Part shown: piece by piece, positions 760-13,549 of the stretch
Layout: the number at the start of each line of letters is the position of its first letter
How positions within the stretch are numbered: position 1 is the first letter of the stretch
Source: Deltaproteobacteria bacterium
GTDB lineage: Bacteria > Desulfobacterota > Desulfobacteria > Desulfobacterales > JAFDCJ01
Reading direction: 5' to 3'
Assembly: GCA_024277475.1 (NCBI GenBank)
Contig: JAJRVC010000066.1
Coordinates: 1-13,587, forward strand
DNA: 13,587 nucleotides
The notes under the pieces: model-generated
Database searches by the model: none
The model's input: the letters and a program-made list of their open reading frames with translations, nothing else
What the model was told of the DNA's origin: nothing
Program-made: the position numbers and the translations under genes

Positions 760-1254
760 ATGTCTGATAGAAAACATCCTCAACATTCTGATATTACGGA
801 TGATATGTGGAAGAAAATCGATGAGATCGTTGCAGCCAACCAGGGCCTGCCCGGTTCGGTCATCGGCGTTTTGCGGGAATGTCAGGATGTTGTTGGATAT
901 CTTCCTGTTGAGTTGATTGACTATATCAGCTACGGACTCAACCTTTCCCGCAGCGAGGTTTTCGGTATCGCTTCTTTCTATTCGCTTTTTTCGTTGAAGC
1001 CCAAAGGGCGCCACGTGATCAAGGTTTGCATGGGAACAGCCTGTTATGTGAAAGGCATACAGGAGTCTATCAGCCGCATTGAAAACCAGTACAACATGAA
1101 AGAAGGCGGTACCACTGAGGACCGGCGCTTTTCCCTGGAAGCTGTCAGGTGTCTGGGGGCCTGTGGACTTGCCCCGGTGGTGGTGGTGGATCAGGACACT
1201 TACGGCGGGGTGAAAGCTGACAAGGTAATTGAAACAATTGAAAAGTATGAATAA
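760..1254 (+). CDS. nuoE: NuoE-like [2Fe-2S] thioredoxin-fold subunit of an NAD(H) oxidoreductase
   Basis: Electron-transfer subunit that pairs with the NuoF-like flavoprotein encoded next; family members occur in complex I, NAD-reducing and bifurcating hydrogenases (HydC/HndA) and transhydrogenases. The 164-residue length is normal. An N-terminal helical bundle precedes a thioredoxin-like domain with the four [2Fe-2S] ligands C90, C95, C131 and C135 (CMGTAC and CLGAC). The ATG at 760 follows a strong GGAGGA site at 748-753. No other complex I subunits are nearby, so it is not part of a standard Nuo operon. The gap to the NuoF-like start is 56 bp, consistent with one operon. The fold and partner are certain; the exact complex is inferred from context. 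Confidence 0.93.
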   Translation: MSDRKHPQHSDITDDMWKKIDEIVAANQGLPGSVIGVLRECQDVVGYLPVELIDYISYGLNLSRSEVFGIASFYSLFSLKPKGRHVIKVCMGTACYVKGIQESISRIENQYNMKEGGTTEDRRFSLEAVRCLGACGLAPVVVVDQDTYGGVKADKVIETIEKYE

Positions 1255-1310
1255 GTGTTCTTGTCAGAATTGATGGTTCCTGGTGAAATCGTGAATTGCA
1301 GGAGAAGAGA

Positions 1311-3098
1311 ATGAATAAGGTTAGAACCCAGTTAATGCTCTGCAGTGGCACGGGCTGTCATGCTACTGGAACTATAGGGTTTCAAGAAGCCCTTCAAAAG
1401 GAACTCGAGCGCCAGGGGCTTGCTGAAGAGATTAAGATTATCGAAACAGGTTGCAATGGCTTTTGCGCTGTCGGCCCGGTCATGCTGGTTCAGCCCGAAG
1501 GAATTTTTTACCAGAAACTTAAAGCCGAGGATGTTCCCCACCTGGTTGAAGAGCATTTTTTAAAGGGCCGTCCGGTTAAAAAATTATTCTATGTAGAGCC
1601 CGCCTCCAGGGAAACCATTCCAACCATGGAACAAATCCCTTTTTTTGCCAATCAAATGTTCTGGGTAATGCGCAACAAAGGGATTATCGATCCGGAACTT
1701 ATCGATGAATATATTGCTAGGGACGGCTACTTTGGGGTCGCCAAAGCTCTTCTGGAAATGACTCCGGAACAGATCATTGAAGAGGTCAAAACTTCCGGGC
1801 TCAGGGGCCGCGGCGGTGCAGGCTTCCCCACCGGTTTGAAATGGGAGTTTGCGCGCCAGACTCCGGGAGAAATCAAATATGTTTTGTGCAATGCCGATGA
1901 GGGCGATCCCGGTGCCTTTATGGACAGGAGCGTTCTTGAAGCCGATCCGCATGCCGTCCTCGAAGGCATGATTATCGCCGCCAGGGCCATTGATGCCCAT
2001 AAGGGAATCATTTACGCCCGCACGGAATATCCCCTGGCTATCCGCAGACTGGGGATAGCCATCAAACAGGCCCGGGAATACGGACTGCTGGGAGAAGATA
2101 TTCTAGGCAGCGGTTTTGATTTTGATATTGAGATTTACCAGGGAGCCGGCGCGTTTGTTTGCGGGGAAGAGACGGCTTTGATGAGATCGATTGAGGGTAA
2201 ACGCGGGATGCCGCGCCCTCGCCCGCCGTTTCCGGCACATCAGGGGTTGTGGGAAAAACCGACCGTCTTAAATAATGTTGAAACCCTGGCCAATATTGCT
2301 CAGATCATTACAAACGGGGGACAATGGTATGCCAGTGTGGGTACGGAGAGCAGCAAGGGGACCAAGGTTTTCGCGTTGTCCGGCGATGTCAATAACATCG
2401 GCCTGGTGGAAGTGCCGATGGGGACGACCCTCAGGACGATAATTTATGATATCGGGGGCGGTGTTCCCGGGAAGAAAAAATTTAAAGCGGTCCAACTGGG
2501 CGGCCCTTCCGGCGGTTGCGTTCCGGAACAATACCTGGACACACCCGTTGACTATGAAGCCATTGCCAAAGTAGGGGCTATCATGGGATCCGGCGGGGCC
2601 ATTGTCATGGATGAAAATACCTGCATGGTGGACATGGCACGCTTTTTCATGGATTTTGTTCAGGATGAGTCCTGCGGTAAATGTACTCCTTGCCGCGAGG
2701 GGACGCGACGACTTTTGCAGCTGCTGGAAAAATTCTGCGAAGGTAGAGGAGAACCCGGAGATATAGAAGTCATGGAGGAGCTCTCCTACACGATCAAAGA
2801 CACCGCTTTGTGTGGGCTGGGGCAAACCGGACCCAATCCGGTCCTTTCCACGTTACGCTACTTCAGGGACGAATATGAGGCCCATATTTATGAAAAACGA
2901 TGTCCGGCCAAGCGCTGTGTGGAGTTGCTTCGATTCGAAGTCGAGCCGGATACTTGTACCAAATGCGGTCTTTGTTTCCGGAGCTGTCCGGCTGATGCCA
3001 TTGTATGGAAAAAGAAAGAGGTTGCATTTATCGACAAAAAAAAATGCATCAAATGCATGACCTGTTTTGAGAAGTGCAGGTTTGATGCTATATTTTAA
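1311..3098 (+). CDS. nuoF: NuoF-like FMN/NAD-binding flavoprotein with N-terminal [2Fe-2S] domain and C-terminal 2[4Fe-4S] ferredoxin domain
   Basis: Catalytic NAD(H)-oxidising or -reducing subunit. Domains by residue: thioredoxin-like [2Fe-2S] domain with C11, C16, C48, C52; 51-kDa core with the FMN/NADH glycine loop GRGGAGFPTG at 166-175 and GAGAFVCGEETAL at 278-290; SLBB domain around 340-410; [4Fe-4S] site ESCGKCTPC (C455, C458, C461) with C501; C-terminal ferredoxin with two CxxCxxCxxxC sets (C549/552/555/559 and C579/582/585/589). This 595-residue layout is that of HndC/HydB-type subunits of bifurcating enzymes, not of plain complex I NuoF (about 430-450 residues). ATG 1311 is chosen because AGGAGA lies just upstream at 1300-1305. 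A TTG five codons earlier (1296) would overlap that site. A 193-bp gap with an inverted repeat follows before the RnfB-like gene. Confidence 0.94.
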   Translation: MNKVRTQLMLCSGTGCHATGTIGFQEALQKELERQGLAEEIKIIETGCNGFCAVGPVMLVQPEGIFYQKLKAEDVPHLVEEHFLKGRPVKKLFYVEPASRETIPTMEQIPFFANQMFWVMRNKGIIDPELIDEYIARDGYFGVAKALLEMTPEQIIEEVKTSGLRGRGGAGFPTGLKWEFARQTPGEIKYVLCNADEGDPGAFMDRSVLEADPHAVLEGMIIAARAIDAHKGIIYARTEYPLAIRRLGIAIKQAREYGLLGEDILGSGFDFDIEIYQGAGAFVCGEETALMRSIEGKRGMPRPRPPFPAHQGLWEKPTVLNNVETLANIAQIITNGGQWYASVGTESSKGTKVFALSGDVNNIGLVEVPMGTTLRTIIYDIGGGVPGKKKFKAVQLGGPSGGCVPEQYLDTPVDYEAIAKVGAIMGSGGAIVMDENTCMVDMARFFMDFVQDESCGKCTPCREGTRRLLQLLEKFCEGRGEPGDIEVMEELSYTIKDTALCGLGQTGPNPVLSTLRYFRDEYEAHIYEKRCPAKRCVELLRFEVEPDTCTKCGLCFRSCPADAIVWKKKEVAFIDKKKCIKCMTCFEKCRFDAIF

Positions 3099-3136: not shown

Positions 3137-3197
3137 CACCAAGGCACAAAGTCATAAAACAAAATTGTTTGTAAAAATTAATCTTTGTGCTTTGGTG
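3137..3197. repeat. Imperfect inverted repeat in the intergenic region (MITE/REP-like)
   Basis: Left arm CACCAAGGCACAAAG (3137-3151) and right arm CTTTGTGCTTTGGTG (3183-3197) are inverted complements over 15 bp with one difference, which is a G-U wobble in RNA. The 31-base spacer is AT-rich and contains its own small dyad AAACAA/TTGTTT. It sits between the NuoF-like and RnfB-like genes of an apparent operon. Sequences of this CCAAG-CACAAAG type look like dispersed intergenic repeats rather than terminators, since no T-run follows the right arm directly. Confidence 0.65.
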
Positions 3198-3291: not shown

Positions 3292-5379
3292 ATGACTGCA
3301 GCGCTTATTTTGATGGGGGGCATAGGACTGGTCATCAGCGCCGGTTTAGCTCTGGCGTCGAAAGTATTTTATGTTTATGTCGATCCCAAGATTCTGGATG
3401 TCGAGGACGAATTGCCGGGTGCCAACTGAGGTGGCTGTGGGCTGCCGGGTTGCAGCGCCAATGCAGAAGCGATCGTGGCCGGAATAGCGGCGCCTAATTC
3501 CTGTGTGGCGGCCGGCCCCGAGGTGGCTGAAGCCATCGCCGGAATCATGGGAGTTAAAATAGAGGCAAAGGAACCGGACATCGCCTTACCGGGATGCTAT
3601 TTCGGTGTCAAGCATGCTGATTTAAAATACATCTATGACGGGCTGGATGATTGCCGGGCGGTGGCGCTTTTAGGCGGTGGTATGAAAGTATGCACCATCG
3701 GCTGTCTGGGCCTGGGGACCTGTGAAAAAGCTTGTCCCTTTGATGCGATTACCATGGGACCCCAGGGACTGCCTGTGGTGGATGAAACGAAATGCACCGG
3801 TTGCGGTACCTGTGAACGGGTCTGCCCGAAGCACATCATTACTCTGTCTTCCGTTACCCGCCGCATCATGAGAGAATACACCACCGAAGAATGTACCACA
3901 CCCTGCCAGCGGGGTTGTCCGGCCGGCATTGATATCCGTGAATATATCCGACAGATTTCTCTGGGTAATTTCCATCGATCGGTTCAGGTCATCAAGGAGC
4001 GCAACCCTTTTCCGGCTATTATCGGAAGAATTTGTCCGCGTCCCTGTGAGCTGGATTGTCGTCGGAATTTTATTGATGAGCCCGTGGCGATCAATTATCT
4101 GAAACGTTATGTCGCCGATTTTGAACGGCAAAGCGGGGAAAGAATACTTCCCTACAAGGCACCCTCATCGGGCCGTGGCATTGCCGTGGTAGGCGGGGGA
4201 GTGGAAGGGCTTTCTACGGCTTATTTTGCCGCCCGCCTGGGTCACCGGGTAACCGTCTATGACGCCAACCCGAAACTCGGCGGATTGTTGCGAAGTGCCA
4301 TAGCCAAAGAACGACTGCCCGAGGAGATACTCGATTGGGACATCGACGGGATCCTTGAAATGGGAGTCGCAGCGCAGACCGGCAAGGTAATGGGAAAAGA
4401 TTTTACAGTGGACTCTTTGCTCAGGCAGGATGTTGAGGCCGTATTTTTGGCCGGCGGCGGCTGGGACAGCCGGCTGGCCCGGGAAACTGTGACCCAAATC
4501 GAATCGCCTATTCCCGGCACCTGTATGATGGTCGATCTCTTAAGTTTAGCGGCCAAAGGCCATGAGATGTTTACCTGTCAATCGGACGTAACTATTTTCG
4601 GTGGCGGCAAACTTGCTTTGGAAGCGGCAACGATTTGCCAAGAATGGGGTGCCGAAAATATTACCCTATTGTTTCGTGAGGATATACAAAACAGTCCTAT
4701 CAGCGATGACGATGTAAAAAATTGCGGTTGCGAAGGATTCGATATTATGTATAACGCCGCTATCCACTGCATAAGAGGTGAAGGGGATCGTCTTGTCGAG
4801 TTGGATACGATTAATATCAAAACCCGGGAAAAAACCACCCTAACGGCTCAAAACTTGATCATCGCCACCGGACGCTTCCCGGAGTTGATTTTTATTGAGT
4901 CAAAACCGGAAGAACCCGAAACCGGAGAGCTTGCGGATCGGCCCTTGCGCTGGGAGGCCACGCCGCCTTATAAACAACCCGCCTTTAAAGACGAAGTCGG
5001 GCTGTTTGCTGAGGGGGATGTGCTGGCTGACTACAGTGCCGCGATTAAAGCCATCGGAGCCGGAAGAAGAGCGGCGGTATCCCTGCAGCAGATGATGTAC
5101 GGGATTGACCCGTCTCTTACGGAGCAGGTGATCACGCCGGAATCCATTTTGCAGAATGTCGATCATGTTGAAAGCGTTATGGCCTGTCAGCGCCAGATCA
5201 TGCCACTTTGCAGCGGCAGGGAGCTTGCTGCATGCGGGGAGATTGAAAGGGGCTTTAACAGCGAAAAGGCGGGATTTGAAGCTTCAAGGTGTCTGCAATG
5301 CGGACTGATTTGTTATGAACATTCTGCTGAGGTCGAAGAAAAAGAGGAGTCTGCCGACCGTATAGAGCAACAGTCATGA
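3292..5379 (+). CDS. rnfB: Selenocysteine-containing RnfB-like / GltD-like (NfnB/StnC-type) fusion oxidoreductase
   Basis: A 695-residue protein when TGA 3427-3429 is read as Sec46. Layout: membrane helix about 3-22; RnfB cluster motif LPGAN-U-GGCGLPGC giving ligands U46, C49, C54, C71 (RnfB normally has Cys at 46); 2[4Fe-4S] ferredoxin (C134/138/144/148 and C168/171/174/178); a cysteine-rich GltD N-terminal domain (C201, C205, C209, C248, C252, C256); FAD loop VVGGGVEG at 299-306; second Rossmann loop FGGGKLALEAA at 436-446; FAD-closing GLFAEGDV; C-terminal CLQCGLIC (C667, C670, C674). The start ATG 3292 has GGAG at 3281-3284, and its N-terminus (ASKVFYVYVDPKI, then LPGAN) is typical RnfB. 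Likely role: passes electrons between ferredoxin, NAD(P)H and the NuoEF-like subunits at the membrane. A plain nonsense mutation is the alternative. It is less likely because the frame is otherwise intact and a SECIS-like hairpin follows. Confidence 0.88.
3427..3460 (+). promoter_or_regulatory. In-frame UGA (Sec codon) with bacterial SECIS-like hairpin
   Basis: TGA occupies 3427-3429 in the frame of the RnfB-like gene. Downstream, GCTGC (3441-3445) pairs perfectly with GCAGC (3452-3456) around the loop CGGGTT (3446-3451). A lower stem TGGC (3432-3435) pairs with GCCA (3457-3460), leaving a 5-nt bulge on the 5' side. The loop begins 16 nt after the UGA and has G as its second base. This fits what is known of bacterial SECIS elements, which lie within the coding region with the loop roughly 16-37 nt from the UGA and a G in the first two loop positions. 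SelB recognition is inferred. Confidence 0.85.
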
Positions 5380-5460: not shown

Positions 5461-5946
5461 ATGGCAACTGAACAGGGCATCGTCATCAAAACCGATTCCA
5501 GCGCGGCATGGGTAAAAACAGTCAAGTCCGGCGACTGTGAGGGATGTTCGGCCAGGGGGTCCTGCCACGCCATGGAAACCAGTGATGAGATGGAGGTAAA
5601 AGTCATCAATGAAGCCGGCGCCAAGGTGGGAGATCGGATTGTCCTGAGTTTTGAAACCTCATCGCTGTTAAAGGCTACCTTCCTGCTCTATGTGTTTCCG
5701 ATATTGTTTCTGATCATCGGCGCGGCTATCGGTCAGGAGATGGCTCCCAAGTTCGGTTTTAATCCTTCCGGGTTCTCGGTGGTCATGGGCTTTATTTTTT
5801 TTTTCGTGGCTCTGCTGATAATCAAAACAACGGCGAACAAACTAGCTAGAAAAAATGAATACCGCCCTAAAATTATAAAAATTTTGAAACCGCTCAACGA
5901 TTCGGGGTTAGCGGAGGTGAACAAAAAAAGAAGCGATGCTCCGTGA
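5461..5946 (+). CDS. RseC/MucC-family membrane protein (SoxR-reducing RseC-like)
   Basis: A 161-residue inner-membrane protein. A soluble N-terminal part holds the family's cysteine motif CEGCSARGSC (C26, C29, C35). It is followed by a small beta region and two membrane helices at about 72-91 and 105-122, then a basic tail, as in RseC. In other bacteria RseC works with Rnf-type complexes to keep SoxR reduced, and RseC-like genes are common beside rnf genes, so its place after an RnfB-like gene fits. It is 81 bp downstream of that gene. The ribosome binding site is weak (GAAAG about 8 bp before the ATG). Its role here is probably assembly or reduction of the redox complex, which is inference; no SoxR gene is in the window. 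Confidence 0.85.
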   Translation: MATEQGIVIKTDSSAAWVKTVKSGDCEGCSARGSCHAMETSDEMEVKVINEAGAKVGDRIVLSFETSSLLKATFLLYVFPILFLIIGAAIGQEMAPKFGFNPSGFSVVMGFIFFFVALLIIKTTANKLARKNEYRPKIIKILKPLNDSGLAEVNKKRSDAP

Positions 5947-10835: not shown

Positions 10836-10894
10836 AGCACCTTTCAATTTGGCTGCGCGATGCGCGGTAAATCCAAAAAAAAATGAAAGGTGCT
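10836..10894 (+). promoter_or_regulatory. Riboswitch expression platform sequestering the ribosome binding site
   Basis: AGCACCTTTCA (10836-10846) is the exact complement of TGAAAGGTGCT (10884-10894), which contains the AAAGGTG ribosome binding site of the downstream gene. A small GCGC hairpin lies between them. The CCTTTCAA part of the first arm can instead pair, with a 2-nt bulge, to TTGATAAAGG at 10739-10748 on the 5' edge of the aptamer. Ligand binding could therefore free the site, making this a translational ON switch; the direction is inference. Confidence 0.75.
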
Positions 10895-10897
10895 CGA

Positions 10898-13549
10898 ATG
10901 GATACAACAATAATATGCTTTCCTCGAATAATTGCTTACGTGTTCAGGAAGGTTTCTTTACTTACTTTACTGGCTCTTGCTTTGCTCGTGTCGCCCATGG
11001 TTGCCTATGGTGCAACGGTTACCCTGGCATGGGATGCCAACACCGAACCGGATCTTGCCGGGTATAAAATTTACTACGGTACGGCCAGCGGCAATTATTC
11101 CGACAGCATCGATGTGGGCGATGTCACAGAGTATACGGTCACGGGACTTGACGACGGTGGTACTTATTATTTTGCTGCCACCGCCTATGACGAAGACTAC
11201 AATGAGAGCGCCTACTCGGAGGAACTGGTCCACACTTTCAGCAACGCCAAACCTACCGGTGACAGTCTGGATTATTGCCGCGATTTTGGACCCTGTACTG
11301 AGGGTGAAGGGGACTGTGATAATGACAACGAGTGTGAGGCTGGCTTAACCTGTGTGCAGGTTACAGGTGTCGATACCTGCCAGACTATTTCACCGGATCC
11401 AAATAGTAGCCCATCCACACCGTCGGTACCGGCCGGTCCTTCCAGCGGGTATATCCAGACAAGTTACAACTTCAGCACGGCGGCTTCCGATCCTGAAGGT
11501 GATGTGCCTGAACTACTGTATGACTGGGGCGACGCGTCAAGCTCCAACTGGGGAGCATCCTCGCAGAGCCATGCCTGGTCCTCTGCCGGCATTTTCTGTG
11601 TCAAAGCTCAGGCAAAAGATAGCAATGGAGCCTTATCGGGTTGGTCGGATTGCAAAAGTATCACTGTTACTGAAAACACCCATACCATTACGGCTTCAGC
11701 GGGCGCTAATGGAAGTATTTCGCCTTCCGGCAGTGTCACGGTCAGCCATGGATCCAGCAGAACATTTACCATCACTGGGGGTGCGAATTATAAGGTTCAG
11801 GATGTTTTGGTGGATGGTATCTCGGTTGGAGCGGTTACCTCCTATGCGTTCACCAATGTGGTTCAGAACCATACGATTGCGGCCGGCTTTACCGTCGATA
11901 ATCAGTCGCCGATAGCCAACGCCGGTCCTGATCAGACAGCCAATGAAGGAGCTGTCATCAAATTAAAGGGTAATACCTCATCGGATCCGGATGGCAGTAT
12001 TGCTGCTTATTCCTGGAACCAGATCAGCGGACCCTCCGTGCAACTCTCAAACTTCGATCAAATCGAAGCCAGTTTCATATCGCCCAATGTCGTTGCATCG
12101 GGTGAGACCCTGGTTTTTCAGTTGGTCGTGGCAGATAACGAAGGGCTTCAGGCGACTGATTCCTGTTCGGTATACGTCACCAGAGAACCGGTAACCGATA
12201 GTGATGGAGACGGTGTTGCGGATGATCAGGATGATTTTCCGTATGATGCGGATGAGTATCTGGACACGGATGGTGACGGCGAGGGCAACAACGCGGATAC
12301 GGATGACGACAATGACGGCATGCCGGACACCTGGGAGTTGTTGTACGGCCTGGATCCGCTTAAAGATGATGCCGACGATGATCCCGACGGTGATGACATC
12401 AGCAATCTCAACGAGTATAATATGGGATCCCAACCGAATTATAATGAAAATAATTTAAAACCGGATCCTCCGCAGTTGCTGAGTCCTGGTAATTACGAGA
12501 TAGTCGGCTTAACACCGCTGCTTGAGACCGACGAATTTTATGATCCAAATGTTGACGATGTCCACAGCCAGACCCAATGGAAGATCATTCGGGTCAATGA
12601 TGAATTCTGTGTGTTTGATGTCACGACAAGTTCATCGTTGACCGCCCTGAAAGTGCCGATGCTGATCCTGGAGGAAGACACCGATTACATCTGGCAGGTC
12701 AAAGTTATTGACAGTCGGGGTACAGCTTCGGAATGGTCTGAAGCCGGATATTTTACGACTGAATTCCTCGAACAGGATTCAGACGGCAATGGTGTCCTGG
12801 ATCATCAGGAAGTGGATACCACCATTGACCTGGATAAAGATGGAATCATGGACCGGGATCAGGAAGACATCAAGTGCGTTGCCACCGAGTCCGGCGGTTT
12901 TAAGATCGGTATCAGTATTCGGGAAGCTGAAAATGCTGATTCCATTGTGTCCATCCAATCAGAGATTCCCGGGGATACTGATTTGCTCTTTTCCGCTCAA
13001 GACGGACCGAATTTTCTGGCGTTTGGGCTGATTCATTTTAAACTGCTTGTAAAAGAACCTGGAGACGAGGTCAAAGTGGCCATTTACCTTTCCAAGGCGG
13101 CCTACGACGATGGAATATGGTATAAATATGATCCCGTAAACGATGAATGGTTTGATTATTCCGACTTCATTGATTTCAGCGCCGATCGAAAAACGGTCCA
13201 TTTGACCCTGACAGACGGCGGCTTCGGTGATGCGGACGGCATTGAAAACGGTGTCATTGTCGACCCTCTTGCCTTACGTACGGCTTCCGATCACAGTTCC
13301 GATTCCTCCGGTTCGGATTCTTTTATAGAGGATGTTACCGACAAGCTGAATCCTGCCAGCGGCATGTGTTTTATTTCAACTGCCGGCTCCCGGTCTGCCA
13401 ACAGGCAAACATTAGGTTTATGGCGTGAAATCCGGGGCAGTGATTTGTCTACTTTAATTGTTTTCATTTTGCTCGTTTACATTGGGAAAGAGATTTTTTT
13501 AAGAATCAGGCACAATCGGGGGATGGGTCGTAGAACAAGTTTAATCTAA
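10898..13549 (+). CDS. Secreted multidomain calcium-binding surface protein with choice-of-anchor U domain and CFI-box C-terminal anchor
   Basis: An 883-residue exported protein. Order: signal peptide (hydrophobic core around SLLTLLALALLVSPM, likely cut after AYGA at 39); fibronectin type III domain 40-114; cysteine-rich patch 126-161; PKD/Ig-like domain 174-258; InlB-B-type repeat 262-332; PKD domain 335-428; thrombospondin type 3-like DxDxDG calcium repeats 434-510; another Ig/Fn3-like domain 522-621; further acidic calcium repeats 626-660; choice-of-anchor U-like domain about 660-790 (WYKYDPVNDEWFDYS, LTDGGFGDADG); Ser/Asp linker; CFISTAG at 824-830; membrane helix 850-868; arginine-rich tail. 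ATG 10898 is chosen because AAAGGTG lies 5 nt upstream; the in-frame ATG at 10883 overlaps that site and has none of its own. Likely an adhesin or matrix protein, made when c-di-GMP is high; this function is inferred. Confidence 0.9.
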   Translation: MDTTIICFPRIIAYVFRKVSLLTLLALALLVSPMVAYGATVTLAWDANTEPDLAGYKIYYGTASGNYSDSIDVGDVTEYTVTGLDDGGTYYFAATAYDEDYNESAYSEELVHTFSNAKPTGDSLDYCRDFGPCTEGEGDCDNDNECEAGLTCVQVTGVDTCQTISPDPNSSPSTPSVPAGPSSGYIQTSYNFSTAASDPEGDVPELLYDWGDASSSNWGASSQSHAWSSAGIFCVKAQAKDSNGALSGWSDCKSITVTENTHTITASAGANGSISPSGSVTVSHGSSRTFTITGGANYKVQDVLVDGISVGAVTSYAFTNVVQNHTIAAGFTVDNQSPIANAGPDQTANEGAVIKLKGNTSSDPDGSIAAYSWNQISGPSVQLSNFDQIEASFISPNVVASGETLVFQLVVADNEGLQATDSCSVYVTREPVTDSDGDGVADDQDDFPYDADEYLDTDGDGEGNNADTDDDNDGMPDTWELLYGLDPLKDDADDDPDGDDISNLNEYNMGSQPNYNENNLKPDPPQLLSPGNYEIVGLTPLLETDEFYDPNVDDVHSQTQWKIIRVNDEFCVFDVTTSSSLTALKVPMLILEEDTDYIWQVKVIDSRGTASEWSEAGYFTTEFLEQDSDGNGVLDHQEVDTTIDLDKDGIMDRDQEDIKCVATESGGFKIGISIREAENADSIVSIQSEIPGDTDLLFSAQDGPNFLAFGLIHFKLLVKEPGDEVKVAIYLSKAAYDDGIWYKYDPVNDEWFDYSDFIDFSADRKTVHLTLTDGGFGDADGIENGVIVDPLALRTASDHSSDSSGSDSFIEDVTDKLNPASGMCFISTAGSRSANRQTLGLWREIRGSDLSTLIVFILLVYIGKEIFLRIRHNRGMGRRTSLI

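Follow-up and report, generated by a model that had tools for sequence, protein, structure and literature searches.

Within the window, by which we mean the whole 13,587-nucleotide stretch of DNA analysed here, from a relative of sulfate-reducing bacteria, we found a gene predicted to encode a fused RnfB-GltD protein with TGA at codon 46, and residue 46 is very probably selenocysteine (Sec) rather than an error. We hold with good confidence the explanation as a whole, namely that UGA46 would be decoded as Sec through a hairpin directly 3' of it, that Sec46 would be a ligand of the FdI iron-sulfur cluster, and that the fusion would serve, beside NuoE and NuoF, as third subunit of one enzyme. 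Coordinates are collected in Table 1; genomes, loci and database proteins are cited under our own G, L and P numbers.

Table 1. Features of the window referred to in the text.
Feature	Positions	Strand	Remarks
NuoE/HydC/StnA-like [2Fe-2S] subunit	760..1254	+	
NuoF/HydB/StnB-like FMN subunit	1296..3098	+	Start codon unsure; extensions: N-terminal [2Fe-2S], C-terminal 2x[4Fe-4S]
RnfB-GltD fusion gene	3292..5379	+	695 aa, predicted Sec at residue 46; TM helix, FdI (PF04060), two more [4Fe-4S] motifs, GltD-like FAD/NAD(P)H domain
TGA read as Sec46	3427..3429	+	Would stand in for the first FdI cluster cysteine (of four)
Cys49 codon	3436..3438	+	Predicted FdI [4Fe-4S] co-ligand; invariant column, aligned to RnfB of solved Rnf
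Putative bSECIS hairpin GCUGC(CGGGUU)GCAGC	3441..3456	+	Conserved place and codon invariance
Cys54 codon	3451..3453	+	Predicted co-ligand; alignment to RnfB, invariant column
GTG codon 62	3475..3477	+	Gene-caller start of truncated 634-aa product
Cys71 codon	3502..3504	+	Predicted co-ligand; alignment to RnfB, invariant column
RseC/MucC-like membrane protein	5461..5946	+	Conserved downstream neighbour

The frame is as the earlier note had described it, starting at ATG 3292, ending with the stop TGA 5377-5379 and open throughout apart from the TGA at codon 46. It reads MTAALILMGG...LPGAN-TGA-GGCGLPGCSANAEAIV..., which gives the motif LPGAN-U-GGCGLPGC around this codon. The description of the product as RnfB-like was borne out by a Pfam scan, in which PF04060 matched residues 41-72 with 43.1 bits (cut-off 23), and by the TIGR01944 model (77.2 bits, cut-off 68.7). 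The N-terminal helix of RnfB is also present, and the scan placed ferredoxin-type cluster motifs at about 137-184, followed by a dihydropyrimidine-dehydrogenase-type Fe-S domain at 201-281 and an NAD(P)/FAD domain. Residues 1-190 match RnfB in solved Rnf complexes (9eri, E 1.1e-53; 7zc6, E 1.5e-50), and the best matches of the GltD part are NfnA of NfnABC and StnC, with NfnB/GltD-type chains also matched.

The TGA at codon 46 was found to recur in relatives. Besides the window, 11 genomes of relatives carry it, all in one clade, whereas 24 other RnfB-GltD genes have a Cys codon (TGC/TGT) there; this comparison of 12 TGA genes with 24 Cys genes was read in fetched genes, a subset of the 224 genomes (out of 291 in an order-level survey) that have a homologue at E <= 1e-100. 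Among the first 11 RnfB-GltD loci fetched, TGA was present in 8 and Cys in 3, and the top ten matches of the order-level survey were TGA genes, with a broken copy in G008 ranking lower. The codon lies where the earlier note had placed it, at the first cluster cysteine of RnfB: in an alignment of 23 proteins the four FdI cysteine positions do not vary, and the other 22 sequences all have Cys at column 46. In two family-level groups the TGA form was present in 6/8 and 5/6 genomes, where G008 fell under the match threshold of one of the counts and yet carries TGA. The family-level genomes without the TGA form were G018, which has Cys, G188, with only a fragment from residue 224, and G177, with only a more distant Rnf2-like paralogue. 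The G188 match (G188:C261:3110-4528) extends to query residue 696, past the stop codon of the query, and since it spans this stop the '1 TGA' recorded for G188 may be a true stop and not a Sec codon. Three order members flagged '1 TGA' among the matches listed (G172, G178 and G196) have Cys at codon 46 and were discarded, as was G156, a 72% identical fragment that might have been counted among the Cys members of the clade but has hairpin codons like those outside it. A phylum-wide scan for the Sec motif of RnfB, made with a narrow pattern on a sample of 395 genomes, matched five, of which only G005 was genuine, and so gave no further Sec RnfB; in the four other genomes (five sites) the frames were full of stops, and the reversed pattern, used as a control, gave six matches. 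That the TGA is a sequencing or assembly error for TGC is hardly credible. The window is a single contig, which would leave room for such an error, but the same codon is TGA in 11 relatives' genomes and the codons downstream of it are frozen.

This freezing was seen in the hairpin. Bacterial SECIS (bSECIS) elements carry a G within the first two positions of a loop that lies about 16-37 nt after the TGA. The 5-bp stem with a 6-nt, G-containing loop reported by the earlier note is indeed there (stem 3441-3445/3452-3456, loop 3446-3451, CGGGTT), with G at loop position 2 and a gap of 16 nt between TGA and loop, so that it agrees with the bSECIS pattern in both respects. At least 5 bp with a loop G were present at the hairpin place in 12/12 TGA genes versus 0/24 Cys genes, three of the latter having 4 bp and a loop G there; when such a 5-bp hairpin was allowed anywhere in the stretch, the counts were 12/12 and 3/24. 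Codons 50-55 (Gly-Leu-Pro-Gly-Cys-Ser) are GGG CTG CCG GGT TGC AGC in all 12 TGA genes, the sole exception being one GGG for GGT, while the adjoining codons vary even at invariant residues and codons 50-55 themselves vary freely, with many codons used, in the 24 Cys genes. Their mean pairwise codon identity was 0.97 versus 0.49 over 277 invariant columns, the usable columns being limited because L001 and L008 are incomplete. They ranked first among 54 testable 6-codon windows for synonymous conservation, and none of 20,000 draws of same-residue columns reached their identity, although these draws do not model kinship. Folding energy and RNAalifold, tried as SECIS tests, gave no support: the energy of the hairpin stretch was unremarkable (z = +0.80, with 164/200 shuffles at least as stable) and no compensatory pairs or covariation were found in the alignment of the hairpin. 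The case for the hairpin therefore rests on its place and on the freezing of its codons. As a positive control, hairpins of a similar kind in the selD genes lie 19-21 nt past the in-frame TGA of SelD itself. Since the TGA recurs, the place of the hairpin is conserved and its codons are the most synonymously conserved, we consider the combination of TGA and hairpin to be beyond chance, and it is through this hairpin that UGA46 would be decoded.

We then considered whether the TGA could be a true stop, giving a 45-residue peptide and a soluble protein that restarts at GTG 3475. What speaks for this comes from the database homologues, for which we used the best 120 of 2752 (119 without the window's own). 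Among these, 106/119 start at residues 62-78, past residue 46, while 12/119 read through with C at the site and one, P0035, lacks residues ~31-46. P0035 is otherwise near full length, the ~16 missing residues including the Sec site. However, late starts of this kind among the best 120 of 2752 are also what gene-caller restarts would produce, as would be expected of miscalled selenoproteins. Codon 62 is GTG in only 7/12 TGA genes, and the Cys homologues are single continuous proteins. In addition, the sequences before and after the TGA are both under purifying selection. Between the window and nine other TGA genes, L008 and L088 being excluded, dN/dS came to 0.08-0.23 for residues 1-45 (defined in 8/9 pairs), 0.045-0.072 for residues 47-200 (9/9 pairs) and 0.08-0.17 for residues 201-690 (7/9 pairs). 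Selection on residues 1-45 and the frozen hairpin codons both argue against a stop, which we regard as very improbable.

The distribution of Sec and Cys could be followed further in a quick tree of residues 79-690. It contained one clade of 131 sequences (SH-aLRT 99), made up of the TGA loci and truncated database rows, 12 Cys rows and the one row with the deletion. Over the columns used in the tree, L007 is identical and L001 nearly identical to a truncated database row, and because these loci match truncated rows, truncation can be taken, for these two at least, as a mark of TGA. If truncated rows are counted as Sec and C in the database as Cys, the whole tree implies 9 Sec/Cys changes, and the simplest reading would be one gain of Sec in the clade with several losses back to Cys. 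The count of reversions is uncertain, because C in the remaining Cys proteins of the database could hide U. For P0042 the C is genuine, its first 70 residues being those of L167, which has TGC in the DNA. This locus (G018:C70:4137-6039) is 89% identical over residues 1-279 and keeps GGG CTG CCG GGT TGC AGC behind the TGC at codon 46; to judge from these codons, it shows a Sec-to-Cys revertant with fossil hairpin codons. The selB gene of G018 is broken across two reading frames of a single contig, through either decay or assembly error. Because Sec appears to have been lost repeatedly back to Cys, the pattern suggests that Sec tunes the function of the protein and does not enable it.

The machinery for Sec was present in the relatives. 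Across the genomes of the 11 TGA relatives, for which completeness is not stated, SelA and SelD were found in 11/11, each best SelD match having an in-frame TGA of its own, and SelB over cut-off in 9/11 (not in G004 and G007). A tRNA-Sec over the gathering score was found in 6/8 TGA genomes examined, with none in G007 and G008 among the 150/390 and 150/591 candidates scored. As a discriminator between TGA and Cys genomes SelB was rejected, because it is also common in non-TGA genomes (22/27). As for individual Cys genomes, in G006 SelB is broken into two parts that lie on two contigs, and a tRNA-Sec is present; G009 has a tRNA-Sec and no SelB was found; and in G011 neither was found. Together, the conservation of the TGA, the frozen hairpin codons, the Sec machinery of the relatives and the purifying selection strongly favour the Sec reading that the earlier note had put forward.

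If residue 46 is Sec, it would occupy the first Cys position of the FdI Cys4 motif, U46-x2-C49-x4-C54-x16-C71, and most likely would ligate the FdI [4Fe-4S] cluster with a selenolate. In a structure model of the fusion, a helix was placed at residues 2-25 and the GltD part was good, while FdI was poor (pLDDT about 55-65) and Foldseek TM-scores were low (<=0.39 by query length); since the model is poor in FdI, cluster ligation by Sec46 rests on homology. In the part of the C. tetanomorphum Rnf study that bears on this domain, FdI is described as small and highly mobile and is proposed to carry electrons from FdII-III to the iron between RnfA and RnfE (PMC9588780); a flexible FdI domain is likewise described in PMC12174285. 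The FdI cluster was not resolved in that Rnf map, and U46-GG-C49 fits UxxC, a redox motif shared by many entries of the selenoprotein table in PMC13188914, so that Sec46 could instead be incorporated as one half of a redox-active, thioredoxin-like selenol-thiol pair and not as a cluster ligand. We consider such a pair unlikely, given that a [4Fe-4S] cluster in FdI is argued to be highly likely by the same authors (PMC9588780), that all four Cys columns are invariant with Cys in column 46 of all other aligned proteins, and that Cys swaps for Sec in the closely related gene of G018. The preferred reading, in which Sec46 is a cluster ligand, departs in one point from the earlier note, which had placed the residue at the ferredoxin entry point. 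FdI with residue 46 lies at the far end from ferredoxin, on the exit side (PMC9588780), and because FdI is proposed to carry electrons to RnfAE, the Sec46 cluster, if formed, would be an exit shuttle and not a ferredoxin dock.

The surroundings of the gene bear on its partners. The order nuoE-nuoF-fusion is intact in the window and at L001-L005, L010, L115 and L116; in G133 (L114) the nuoE match is partial, covering just residues 1-63, and L007 starts inside nuoF at a contig end. An rseC gene follows 3' of the fusion at all TGA loci but L001, where the contig ends inside the fusion. The operon exception is G008 (L008/L112), where nuoEF is missing and the TGA copy, besides lacking its first 18 codons, carries a frameshift near residue 540-553; this may be a decaying copy or an assembly error. 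Of nine Cys loci inspected, two (L006 and L118) have nuoEF, and it was not found at the other seven (L009, L011, L110, L111, L113, L117 and L119), the sequence of L111 beginning just 265 nt 5' of the gene. At L011, rnfC-D-G-E-A lies upstream of the Cys fusion, these names being based on order and size and backed by matches to Rnf operons found via PF03116. NuoF of the window matched subunit B of a NiFe-hydrogenase (7t2r, 1.4e-258), HydB (7.6e-254) and StnB (6e-221), and NuoE matched 7t2r subunit C (1.8e-44) and HydC (1.6e-41). The nearest matches of both are thus bifurcating-hydrogenase subunits, those of StnABC and NfnABC come second, and a HydBC-type core is present. The NuoG-like [2Fe-2S] module of the Bfu/StnABC/NfnABC third subunit was not found in the Pfam scan.

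Judged by operon and homology, NuoE, NuoF and the RnfB-GltD fusion probably make up one enzyme of the HydBC/StnAB/NfnBC bifurcating type, with the fusion as its third subunit; the single TM helix of RnfB would anchor the fusion in the membrane. In StnABC, electrons of NADPH are described as passing from the GltD flavin to the bifurcating NuoF-type flavin (PMC10482914). In the enzyme proposed here, electrons would be exchanged between NAD(P)H on the side of the GltD flavin and NAD+ and ferredoxin on that of the NuoF flavin, and the mobile FdI domain would deliver electrons one at a time to a partner in the membrane, which might be RnfAE of Rnf2, or RseC. As for the earlier view of an Rnf-type protein, membership of the RnfB family stands, but the gene lies outside an rnfCDGEA operon, beside nuoE/nuoF and rseC and not rnfACDEG. 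All seven TGA genomes searched have rnfD, and six of these (G005, G008, G097, G039, G002 and G010) have an Rnf-adjacent RnfB-GltD paralogue with Cys at site 46 (FAGANCGGCGYAGC); for the seventh, G133, only a short contig was available for the Rnf2 search, and in G008 the rnf genes lie in two places. The fusion might, doubtful as we hold it to be, dock on RnfADEG in place of the operon RnfB and, with NuoEF, feed the Rnf2 pump from NAD(P)H. It retains the TM helix and FdI of RnfB, Rnf2 operons are present in TGA genomes, and RseC adjoins it; but in 6/7 TGA genomes these operons encode their own Cys RnfB-GltD.

Two further features of the window were noted. In the gap between nuoF and rnfB, positions 3137-3197 hold a near-perfect 15-bp hairpin (CACCAAGGCACAAAG ... 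CTTTGTGCTTTGGTG), with z = -3.06 in a single-strand DNA fold and 2/200 shuffles as good. It could represent a dispersed repeat of small size; a search of 171 loci with 15 bases from it gave no match. Positions 10883-13549 encode a large putative secreted protein in which, by eye, Asp-rich repeats of the calcium type and a hydrophobic C-terminal segment can be made out.

A UxxC selenoprotein described as 'Fe-S cluster domain-containing protein' is listed under PRK07118 / NF005503 in the tables of PMC9312934 and PMC13188914, with ABC78902.1 and WP_258165141.1 as listed members. NF005503 is a model of 292 positions for the RnfABCDGE type subunit B. Because the reviews list this UxxC family and the model is one of RnfB, a Sec-containing member of the RnfB family has already been predicted. 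What these proteins share with the fusion, as tabulated there, is the RnfB family and the UxxC Sec motif (PMC9312934, PMC13188914); they are set apart at the level of the model and its description, NF005503 being a short RnfB versus a fusion with GltD that scored 182.1 bits, under the equivalog cut-off of 252. The large RnfB (~700 aa) of Rnf2 in Desulfobacula toluolica and Desulfococcus multivorans likewise joins RnfB with NAD+-binding sites, but it is a subunit of an rnf cluster, whereas the window fusion lies beside nuoEF and has a predicted Sec; the available part of that paper reports no Sec RnfB, and the five Sec genes it names exclude RnfB (PMC5109826). The bifurcating transhydrogenases StnABC and NfnABC of the Bfu family share the NuoE, NuoF and GltD parts (PMC10482914, PMC9304861, in the sections available). 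The window system differs from these in that no NuoG-like part was found and in its membrane-anchored RnfB part and Sec. HdrA selenoproteins (CxxU), in which Sec is a cluster ligand, are another case from anaerobes of an iron-sulfur electron-transfer subunit with Sec, but in another protein family and at another site. There is also a selenoprotein called 'RnfC', which we take to be PrdC and not the RnfB-GltD fusion. It was rejected as the same protein (PMC5029168) because later reviews list PrdC instead. The UxxC selenoprotein of the RnfB family is credited in the relevant table of a 2022 review to the 2008 GOS study, the main text of which, as available, does not contain the term 'Rnf', and the rows that this review credits to the 2007 Olavius paper, as far as available, include no RnfB; L002 itself stems from a record of Olavius Delta 1. 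For D. autotrophicum, the available part of the genome paper names 17 energy-metabolism Sec proteins, RnfB not included. Within the open-licence literature, the GltD-fused and NuoEF-linked Sec form therefore appears to be new.

In well-understood selenoproteins Sec is mostly found at catalytic sites. Here it would sit at a position that in the homologues is that of a structural cluster ligand, within a mobile electron shuttle. One consequence is practical, as gene calling truncates the fusion in 106/119 homologues (best 120 of 2752), so that the membrane anchor and first cluster are lost. Speculatively, and with low confidence, the membrane-bound, NuoEF-dependent bifurcating NAD(P)H/ferredoxin enzyme could be an alternative electron-input module of the Rnf sodium pump, with a 3Cys/1Sec shuttle in which selenium tunes a one-electron carrier. 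The closely similar Cys and Sec forms of the protein, among them one that retains a fossil hairpin, amount to a natural experiment on the effect of a selenolate on a [4Fe-4S] cluster and, if the Sec46 reading is true, they would offer a rare opportunity to study the role of selenium at an electron-shuttling centre.
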